From positions 1 to 64,000 of the forward strand of contig NZ_JAERQF010000004.1 of NCBI RefSeq assembly GCF_016734815.1: a stretch of DNA of 64,000 nucleotides, written 5' to 3'. The stretch's first letter is position 1. Every line of letters begins with the position of its first letter. The translations under genes and the position numbers were made by a program. Below are positions 25,825 through 28,778 of the stretch, piece by piece. Source of the stretch: Hymenobacter rubidus (GTDB lineage: Bacteria > Bacteroidota > Bacteroidia > Cytophagales > Hymenobacteraceae). Below the pieces are notes generated by a model. The model made no database searches, had not been told where the DNA came from, and was given only the letters and a program-made list of their open reading frames with translations.

Positions 25825-26019
25825 TAGGACTTACGCAGTTGAAGCCCCAGCGGGGCGGCACATTGGTAGTAAGTTATTCATTATGCAATGGCAAAGCCCC
25901 GGCGGGGCGACACTCGCCAAGCACTCAACCGAGTGTCGCCCCGCTGGGGCTTTCTCCCCAACATCAGCCAGTTACTATCGAGATGGCGCCCCGCTGGGGC
26001 TGCAACTGCGTAAGTCCTA
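25825..26019. repeat. nested inverted repeat (GCCCCAGCGGGGC type)
   Basis: Outer arms TAGGACTTACGCAGTTGAAG... (from 25825) and ...GCAACTGCGTAAGTCCTA (to 26019) enclose AGCCCCAGCGGGGCG on the left and CGCCCCGCTGGGGCT on the right. Inside is a second pair: AAAGCCCCGGCGGGGCGACA (25893) and CGAGTGTCGCCCCGCTGGGG (25930). One hairpin sits within a second copy of the same core. Confidence 0.85.
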
Positions 26020-26982: not shown

Positions 26983-27145
26983 GAGCTACTAAGGAATTGA
27001 ATGAGCGATGAGAATTTGGACAAAAGTAATCCGTCGGCGTGCATGGCGCGGCCAAGGCCTCCACGGGGGCCGCAGAACCGCGCTGGAAAAACGGCCCGCA
27101 TTGCGTTAAGTCGTCAAGCAAACGTAAACGGCTAGTAAAAAGGTG

Positions 27146-27367
27146 GTCATGCTGCGCTTGTCGAAGCATCTCTACTGCAACAGTAAACCTAGCGCGGTGT
27201 CGGGGTTGGTGTAGAGTAGCGCGAACGTTGTCGTTCGCGTCCCCGCGCCGCGAGCTTGTTCTGGCACGCGAACTGCAAAGTTCGCGCTACTGACTGCACG
27301 TACACTGACTTCGAAACGGCTGTAAGTACTAGCGCGGTAGAGATGCTTCGGCTGCGCTCAGCAGGAC
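27146..27367. repeat. family A repeat interrupted by a second element
   Basis: Left arm from 27146 (GTCATGCTGCGCTTGTCGAA...) and right arm 27338-27367 (GTAGAGATGCTTCGGCTGCG...CAGGAC) are separated by about 160 bases instead of the usual 30-50, because the element at 27199-27338 lies in the loop. Confidence 0.85.
27199..27338. mobile_element. 140-bp hairpin element inserted in a family A repeat, with 10-bp direct repeats
   Basis: CTAGCGCGGT is present at 27189-27198 and again at 27329-27338, flanking DNA that contains GTAGCGCGAACG..GTTCGCG and GCGAACT..AGTTCGCGCTAC inverted arms (27215-27294). Removing the DNA between the copies restores a normal family A loop (ACAGTAAAC + CTAGCGCGGTAGAG). 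This looks like an insertion with target duplication; no ORF is present, so it would need to move in trans. Confidence 0.65.
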
Positions 27368-27403
27368 GTTCGAGCGAATACGATTACTTATGCACGAGTA
27401 CCT

Positions 27404-27439
27404 AAAAAAAGCCCCGCCAGATGCTAGCGGGGCTTTTTT
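27404..27439. terminator. terminator after the GH28 gene
   Basis: A7-GCCCCGC ... GCGGGGC-T6 stem, 20 bases downstream of the GH28 stop on the minus strand; usable in both directions. Confidence 0.88.
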
Positions 27440-27458: not shown

Positions 27459-28778
27459 TTAATCGGGTTTCAAGGGCGTCACGGCCGGGCCGGCGCTTTT
27501 TGTGGCGGTTAGCGGAGCCCCGTTGAGGGTGACGTTTTCAAATTTGATGTCCGAGTACTTGTTGGGGAAAGCGGCCTGGTCGGCGGTGGCGTCCACGTTT
27601 TTGAAGGTGATGTTCGATACCTTGTCGGTGGGGTTGCCGTTGAGCACGGCGAACTGCTTGCACGTCACTTTCACGTTGGAAACGGTGATGTTGCGGATGG
27701 TGCCGAAGGGCTTTTCGGTGCTGCCGGCCATGTTGAAAAACTGCGTCCAGGGGGAGAGCGTGACGATGGTGCCGCACTTGCCGGTGATGCCGTCGATGCT
27801 GATGTTTTCGTAGACCTGGTAGGTGTCGGGGCGCATTTTAAAGAGCAGCACGGGCCGCTCGTTGTCCATCTTGCAGTTGCGCATCACAATGCGGTTGGCG
27901 TGAATGCACTCGCTGCCGCAGGTGAGGGCGGCGTGCACTTCGCCGAAGGTGCAGTTTTCCACCAGCACGTCTTCGATGGGGCCGTTTTCGGGCAGCTTTT
28001 GGGCCGTAGGACCTTTGCCGCCCTTGATGGCAATGCCGTCGTCGTTGACGGAGATGTAGCAGTTGCGGATGGTCACTTTCTTGCACACGTCGATGTCGAT
28101 GGCGTCGGTGCTGGGCGCTTTCACCGGGCGGAAGGGCGAGCGGATGTCGCAGCCGTCGAGGACGACGTTGTTGGACTGGTAAAGGTGGGTGGTCCAGAAG
28201 CCGGAGTTGTGCAGCTTCACGTTTTTGATGCTCACGTTGTTCGAACCCCAGATGAAGAGCAGGCGGGGCCGGTGCACCTCCAGGTTGGTGGCCGACTTGC
28301 CGATTTTCGACATCGAGTCGCGGTAAAACCAGAACCGCTTCCAGAACTTCAGCCCGTTGCCATCAATGGTGCCGGGACCGTTGATGCTGAAGTTGTTCAC
28401 CTGCTTGGCGTTGACGAGGGCAGCGTAGTAATCGAGCTTTTGGCCCTCCATGCGCGAGGGCACCAGGGGGTAGTCGGCAATGTTGTCGGAGCCCTTGAGC
28501 TTGGCGCCGGCCTGCAGGCGCAGGTGAGTGCCCGGCTTAAAAAACAGCGCCCCGCTCAGGAAAACGCCCTTTGGGATGACGATGGTGCCGCCACCGGCCG
28601 CGCTGGCTTTGTCGATGACTTTTTGAATGGCCTGGGTGTTCAGCTTGGTGCTGTCGAGGCCGGCCCCGAATTGGGTGATGACGTAGTCTTTGGGGGCGGC
28701 GGGCGTTTTGGGCGGAGCGGGGGCGTGGAGCGAAAAGGCCGCCAGGCAAGCCGCCAGCGGCGCGAGGAGAAGTTTCAT
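27459..28778 (-). CDS. glycoside hydrolase family 28-like (polygalacturonase-type) protein
   Basis: 439 aa, signal peptide MKLLLAPLAACLAAFSLHAP. Right-handed beta-helix with pectate lyase/GH28 features: N-terminal ITQFGAGLDSTKLNTQAIQKV, FSINGPGTIDGNG, the catalytic region STDAIDID (usual NTD), VNDDGIAIKGG (the DD pair), and CGSECIHANRIVMRNC where most GH28 have GHG and RIK. The changes at the first and third motifs suggest an altered substrate, as in GH28 members acting on rhamnogalacturonan or other polymers. No other polysaccharide-utilisation gene is adjacent. Followed by a strong terminator. Confidence 0.88.
   Translation of the reverse strand: MKLLLAPLAACLAAFSLHAPAPPKTPAAPKDYVITQFGAGLDSTKLNTQAIQKVIDKASAAGGGTIVIPKGVFLSGALFFKPGTHLRLQAGAKLKGSDNIADYPLVPSRMEGQKLDYYAALVNAKQVNNFSINGPGTIDGNGLKFWKRFWFYRDSMSKIGKSATNLEVHRPRLLFIWGSNNVSIKNVKLHNSGFWTTHLYQSNNVVLDGCDIRSPFRPVKAPSTDAIDIDVCKKVTIRNCYISVNDDGIAIKGGKGPTAQKLPENGPIEDVLVENCTFGEVHAALTCGSECIHANRIVMRNCKMDNERPVLLFKMRPDTYQVYENISIDGITGKCGTIVTLSPWTQFFNMAGSTEKPFGTIRNITVSNVKVTCKQFAVLNGNPTDKVSNITFKNVDATADQAAFPNKYSDIKFENVTLNGAPLTATKSAGPAVTPLKPD

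Follow-up and report, generated by a model that had tools for sequence, protein, structure and literature searches.

The window (the whole stretch of 64,000 nucleotides that we analysed) comes from contig C44 in a Hymenobacter rubidus draft genome of 5.49 Mb in 87 contigs; the best named matches to a gene adjoining the hairpin described here were likewise from Hymenobacter. The hairpin lies between a gene for a product of 201 aa and a minus-strand gene (27459-28778) for a protein of glycoside hydrolase family 28. The NCBIfam model closest to the latter product is rhamnogalacturonidase, but the 534.5 bits obtained fall short of the cut-off, which is 650. A preliminary description of positions 27146-27367 had recognised a repeat within a repeat, and this is what we found: an insert with a palindrome of its own has come between the arms of a family A hairpin. 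The separated outer arms, at 27162-27185 and 27327-27350, are 83% complementary. The left half of the hairpin, with the loop up to the insertion point, occupies 27145-27189 (+ strand), and the right half occupies 27325-27368 (+ strand). Both halves are held in a larger outer repeat unit at 27106-27404 (TTAAGTCGTC...GAGTACCTA), of which five uninterrupted paralogues were read. The TTAAGT...ACTTA-like ends of this outer unit, as of those at L141 and L237 to L240, form inverted repeats in part, and the unit is possibly a further MITE-like element.

Arms of family A are abundant, with 625 matches genome-wide (323 + 302) and none to the control pattern. In the genome-wide matches listed and in the flanks of the copies of the insert, opposite arms are paired, giving an inverted dimer. 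Tags of the CGTC type (TGACG or GGACG at the arm end) occur on 21 of 26 arms taken from the window and nine other loci; at this locus the left arm carries the tag GGTC, and the right arm ends in GGACG (reverse complement CGTCC). Judged by both its tag and its inverted dimer form, family A is classified here as a CGTC-type REP doublet. Of the 60 Y1/RAYT loci that we scanned, some of which overlap, not one had its gene bracketed by family A.

The segment that splits the hairpin has an inverted repeat with arms at 27215-27243 and 27263-27291 (86% complementary), and the 10-mer CTAGCGCGGT stands near both of its ends, at 27189-27198 and 27329-27338 (both + strand; 140 bases from start to start); the inverted repeat and the two 10-mer copies were already part of the preliminary description. 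The 10-mer had been taken for a target duplication left by insertion. Positions 27100-27400, used as query against the own genome, gave 90 matches, many of about 135 bases and at different places, with scores computed for 40 of the 617 candidates from the first look. We aligned 25 copies, these being the rows of 134-136 bp from L001 to L025 among 32 rows; the rows dropped were six of 147 bp (three elements, each on both strands) and one of 135 bp (L144). The 25 copies share a unit that runs from TAGCGCGGTG to CGGCTGTA with a mean column identity of 95%. In the window, this alignment places the inserted element at 27192-27322 (+ strand; 131 bp, or 135 bp with both TAs), between one TA at 27190-27191 and another at 27323-27324. 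TA stands at the left end of 25/25 copies and at the right end of 23/25 (CA in the other two), counts that are not independent of the copy-finding pattern, which tolerated mismatches but itself included the TA of either end. Independent of that pattern are the bases outside: a pyrimidine precedes and a purine follows the TAs in 24/25 copies, compared with 12.5% of the TA sites of the window (P ~5e-21). A direct repeat longer than TA was found in 0/25 copies. From these comparisons, the target duplicated at insertion is read as TA, with a preference for YTAR (here CTAA, giving an empty site of C-TA-A).

The left 10-mer consists of a host C followed by the insert's own first nine bases (TA-GCGCGGT; some copies differ by a single change), which occur at 25 different places; it contains the left TA and the end of the element and is no target duplication. 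The right 10-mer is family A sequence of the host that happens to resemble the end of the element, and the corresponding region of five uninterrupted paralogues reads ACTTGCGCGG in four and ACTTGCGCGGTAGAG in two. An insertion with a 10-bp target duplication, made by a transposase family that generates about that length, would account for an exact 10-mer repeat at the right distance, but the repeat at the right junction is present in only 1 of the 25 aligned copies, that of the window; with the left 10-mer being the element's own end, we regard such an event as most improbable. Gene conversion or recombination between dispersed repeats, with no transposition at all, is given equally little credence: family A, with its hundreds of copies (625 arm matches), would offer ample substrate, but such exchange is not expected to produce TA ends with a pyrimidine before and a purine after at differing flanks.

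Comparison with the five uninterrupted copies of the outer repeat (on C8, C86, C55 twice, and C87), which are paralogous rather than orthologous, separated the two excision models further. Removal of 131 bp plus one TA scored above the 10-mer cut against 5/5 paralogues. Against the C8 paralogue, the TA model gave 159 identities and no gap, versus 155 identities and 7 gap columns for the 10-mer cut; over the five paralogues, the gap columns were 0, 3, 0, 4, and 0 for the TA model versus 7, 10, 7, 9, and 7 for the 10-mer cut. Only on C8 and C86 does the paralogue have a single TA at the exact insertion site (CC-TA-A). The 25 other genomes that have the gene at 27459-28778 (1.5 kb read on each side) yielded no orthologous empty site. 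Both neighbouring genes were present within 1.5 kb in only one of these genomes (L154, in G115), and its intergenic region holds neither family A nor this element. Between the same two genes, L154 carries a REP doublet of the GTAG type described below, without IS630-like ends (scores of 14 and 13 of 25). At L148 and L149, a family A hairpin lies beside a relative of the gene at 27459-28778 with other neighbours. The hairpin at L149 (G057, 2888-2988) is itself interrupted, there by another palindromic sequence some 100 bases long (GTCATCTGAGC...GTCAGGATGAC). An exact search of named genomes with the 24-base left end gave no match; records of the own genome were possibly excluded from that search.

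With respect to the preliminary description, arrival by insertion is supported, with TA in place of the 10-mer as the duplicated target, and this correction is what the present work chiefly contributes to the original finding. The proposal had been said to depend on other copies also showing a duplication: they show none of the 10-mer, and insertion as such is untouched by this result. The suggestion that these ORF-less hairpins move is supported for inserts of this kind by the spread of 25 similar copies at different places, and not by a 10-bp duplication; it does not extend to the host hairpins, since this locus gives no ground for concluding that family A is mobile. A transposase acting in trans had been put forward as something to search for, and the resident IS630 elements described below provide candidates. 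Folded as RNA, the 135-nt unit reached -64.7 kcal/mol (z -3.85) and, as DNA, -36.2 kcal/mol (z -3.65), with 0/200 shuffles as low in either case, which is expected of a long palindrome.

The ends of the insert resemble those of IS630 elements. The right terminal inverted repeat with its TA (27299-27324, - strand; inward TACAGCCGTTTCGAAGTCAGTGTACG) matches four IS630 ends of three elements resident in the same genome at 20-21 of 26 positions, a level reached by 0 of 20,000 shuffles for each. The left repeat with its TA (27190-27215, + strand; TAGCGCGGTGTCGGGGTTGGTGTAGA) matches IS630 ends weakly, at 15-16 of 26 positions (p 0.0015-0.0045), and matches the insert's own right end at 16/26. A pattern built from the right end found 57 matches in the genome, and the reversed pattern found 0. 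These matches include the right end of an IS630 element on C4 and both ends of one on C35, whose outer ends are 1,014 bp apart. The C35 transposase is split over two overlapping frames, and its orfB scored 117.3 bits against NF033545 (transpos_IS630; cut-off 100). Six contig ends (L127 to L132) carry a second IS630 type that has an end of this sort, and the adjoining frames, with a similar transposase C terminus, read WFGHCGYHVH in four cases and WFDHCGYHVH in two. It appears that one multi-copy IS630 type breaks the assembly at these six places, as expected of a repeated insertion sequence. Ends identical to those of the 135-bp subfamily were not found on any IS630 copy in the draft genome, and no matching ends were found for an IS630-like gene on C63 (L034). 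The elements of 147-149 bp in the own genome have ends nearer to a perfect IS630-like repeat. At 29 IS630 loci of other genomes searched at up to 5 mismatches, 19 had a pair of such ends, one on each side at a distance of about 1 kb, 6 had one on a single side, and 4 had none. Duplication of TA is typical of IS630. The match of the terminal repeats to resident IS630 elements, the TA duplication, and the short, dispersed copies together identify the insert, at the level of sequence, as an IS630-type MITE that has no transposase gene.

The interior of this putative MITE is of a different kind. It begins with GTAG at 27216, ends with CTAC at 27290, and consists of two inverted palindromes, at 27216-27239 (+ strand) and 27267-27290 (- strand), which form a GTAG-type REP doublet (GTAGCGCGAAC...GTTCGCGCTAC; 27216-27290). 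We refer to these as the B REPs and the B doublet. In the own genome, the B REP had 245 matches (121 + 124) at no more than 3 mismatches, and the reversed pattern had 0. The unit was matched at E 1e-10 or better in 53 of 120 genomes of the genus; among the matches listed, most of those from other genomes cover the interior core alone. At 29 best-hit loci from other genomes, the doublet was bare in 22, had IS630-like ends on both sides in 5, and had them on one side in 2, even though these loci were chosen with a framed query and are biased toward framed copies. The bare doublets share a common sequence up to GTAG and CTAC and diverge beyond.

The B doublet is also associated with a RAYT gene. 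In genome G037, an open RAYT frame, which scored 91.7 bits against NF047646 (REP_Tyr_transpos, NCBIfam; cut-off 80), sits between two such doublets. When 30 RAYT loci were fetched from the best matches, 25 had B REPs on both sides within about 200 bp; of the remaining five, three had the looser GTAGCGCG and two had none. In contrast, B REPs were present at four of 30 Y1_Tnp loci of mixed kinds, and these four were the only ones that later matches assigned to this RAYT type. Given the GTAG heads, the bare copies, and the flanking of RAYT genes, we assign the core of the insert to the GTAG REP doublets (REPINs), with a cognate RAYT in other Hymenobacter genomes. In the draft genome of the window, no close RAYT was found: the one match at E 1e-10, on C6, was 31% identical, and no B REP was present in the 3.3 kb read at that locus. 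A close RAYT is possibly absent from the assembly because the assembly is a draft of 87 contigs.

These data bear on another explanation, namely, that a RAYT or Y1 transposase moved the whole insert as a REPIN and that its IS630-like ends are incidental. The interior is indeed a REP doublet with a cognate RAYT in other genomes, and bare doublets occur in the own genome as well (6 of 16 sampled). A REPIN moved by a RAYT would nevertheless be expected to end at GTAG and CTAC, that is, at its REP pair, whereas the present unit reaches the terminal repeats and TA in 25 copies; the sole match in the own genome at E 1e-10 is, moreover, only 31% identical to the RAYT and lacks a B REP in 3.3 kb. We consider this account improbable. 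A Y1 gene on C18 was tried as the mover of the insert and rejected: its locus contains no B REP, and the gene, the only Y1_Tnp match of the genome at E 0.001, is closer to IS200/IS605 transposases. That gene (L031, G000:C18:51585-51929) is flanked by GCCCC.CGGGGC hairpins, and four hairpins of this kind lie in the window within 25844-26000, at 25844, 25896, 25938, and 25988. Elsewhere in the genus, Y1/RAYT-like genes (L178, L180, L184, and L196) stand between hairpins of other families, unrelated to these (GAGCCGCGAAGCGGC, GCCCCAGCGGGGC, CCCAGGGCTTCAGCCCTGGG, and GGCACGGGCCGCAGGCCCGCGCC).

The idea that every B doublet of the own genome is framed by IS630-like ends proved wrong. Among 16 doublets, obtained as pattern matches around the first 30 of the 245 REP matches (L242, L245, and L266 gave none), 9 were framed, 1 had an end on one side, and 6 were bare. 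Across the genus, the composite pattern GTGTACN{0,14}GTAGCGCGAAC was found at 131 places in 16 of 120 genomes, with the control in none; the own genome had 43 places, G009 had 23, G023 had 22, and G113 had 19. We checked 30 of the 131 places, using a threshold of at least 18 of 25 positions that 3 of 3,000 random stretches of the window also reached. Both ends passed in 9 loci (8 distinct places), located in G006, G009, G011, G018, G023, G071, and G080, whereas no end passed at the places checked in G042, G077, G078, and G098, and the count of 16 genomes therefore overstates the distribution of the chimera. Together with G005, G113, and the own genome, doublets framed by IS630-like repeats with both ends supported are present in ten genomes. 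The end types, the spacers between terminal repeat and REP, and the best-matching IS630 ends of the framed elements differ between genomes. This variation fits repeated capture, without proving it.

The same variation can be read in the opposite direction. RAYT-driven doublets could have been inserted, perhaps several times, into existing IS630 MITEs or into internally deleted IS630 copies, in place of a single capture and later joint spread, and the types of terminal repeat and the spacers do differ between genomes and subfamilies. The 25 copies of the 135-bp subfamily, on the other hand, have spacers and doublet in common, small changes aside, so that in this subfamily at least the whole unit has spread together. 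In the matches to the terminal repeat that we read, moreover, no MITE with both such ends and no REP sequence was present; two single-ended matches at 3 mismatches, on C17 and C33 (L272 and L273), had no REP nearby. We regard insertion of doublets into ready-made MITEs as possible but rather unlikely, and we infer instead that the REP doublet was captured.

Five of the 25 copies of the MITE lie between two family A arms, and a single arm accompanies two more (L004 and L010). Compared with the 1 in 67 of YTAR sites outside long ORFs that would be so placed, a share derived from one site in one window with genes approximated by ORFs, landing in family A is in excess (P ~3e-5). Two of the five, the copy in the window and that at L003, occupy the same position in the loop. 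On these small numbers, it is no more than suggested that the MITE lands preferentially in the loops of CGTC hairpins.

Taken together, these results indicate, with a probability of about 0.88, that a CGTC-type REP doublet (family A) was hit by a nonautonomous IS630-type MITE carrying a GTAG-type REP doublet. The DDE transposase of resident IS630 elements, presumably of one or another of the copies described above, would act in trans and recognise the terminal repeats TA(C/G)AGC..TTC..AGT.AGTGTAC. It would then cut the element out and paste it into a YTAR site in the loop of the hairpin (here CTAA), and insertion would duplicate the TA; the activity might be recent or even ongoing. The cargo of the MITE would be the GTAG-type REP doublet, whose own RAYT is present in other Hymenobacter genomes. 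In the own genome, where the draft yielded no close relative of that RAYT, the doublet would spread with the IS630 ends.

A broader proposal, which we hold to be evenly balanced, is that the GTAG REP doublets of Hymenobacter serve as cargo of IS630 MITEs, possibly through several captures made independently by different IS630 lineages. The doublets would have gained a second route of spread via a DDE transposase, multiplying without a RAYT of their own, and the composite would in turn nest in CGTC REP doublets. If true, a recurring chimera lets REP doublets spread without a RAYT, which bears on the persistence of REPs after loss of the RAYT and on the question of which transposases carry small palindromic repeats. 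One genome contains doublets of both kinds, framed and bare, which allows a direct comparison of their junctions and of their polymorphism between strains, as a natural test.

Among known systems, we judge by analogy that the closest match in kind to the insert is RUP of Streptococcus pneumoniae, a 107-bp MITE with IS630-Spn1-like ends (PMC3049150). Like the insert, RUP as portrayed in the text consulted is short, high in copy number, and tightly folded, has the ends of a resident IS630-like element, and includes repeats inserted into one another (PMC3049150). It differs in sequence and in phylum, and the portion of that account consulted here describes no REP doublet inside RUP (PMC3049150); 25 aligned copies of the present subfamily compare with the 110 RUP copies given there for one pneumococcal genome. 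The Correia/NEMIS and ERIC elements are likewise short palindromic MITEs, differing in sequence, and Correia is listed as IS630-derived in the part of PMC2817692 that we drew on. The interior at 27216-27290 resembles REPINs with their RAYTs, as outlined in the excerpts used of PMC3116915, PMC2817692, and PMC3733652, in its inverted GTAG palindromes and in the doublets that flank RAYT genes elsewhere. In comparison with the REPINs of those excerpts, the Hymenobacter doublet is enclosed by IS630-like repeats plus TA and repeated within this larger unit, and a close RAYT was not found in the Hymenobacter draft genome. The sections consulted of PMC3733652 report CGTC repeats in Bacteroidetes with no dedicated transposase for them and note DNA inserted between the partners of REP dimers. 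Family A is like the CGTC-tagged REPs of the same sections by tag and dimer form alone and not through the four consensus families (PMC3733652). In the literature searched, mostly outside subscription papers and represented by partial texts, we found no account that places a REP doublet within an IS630 MITE. Both IS630-type MITEs and REP doublets are familiar, though as separate classes with unrelated enzymes, and the chimera that joins them is the unexpected part of the system described here.
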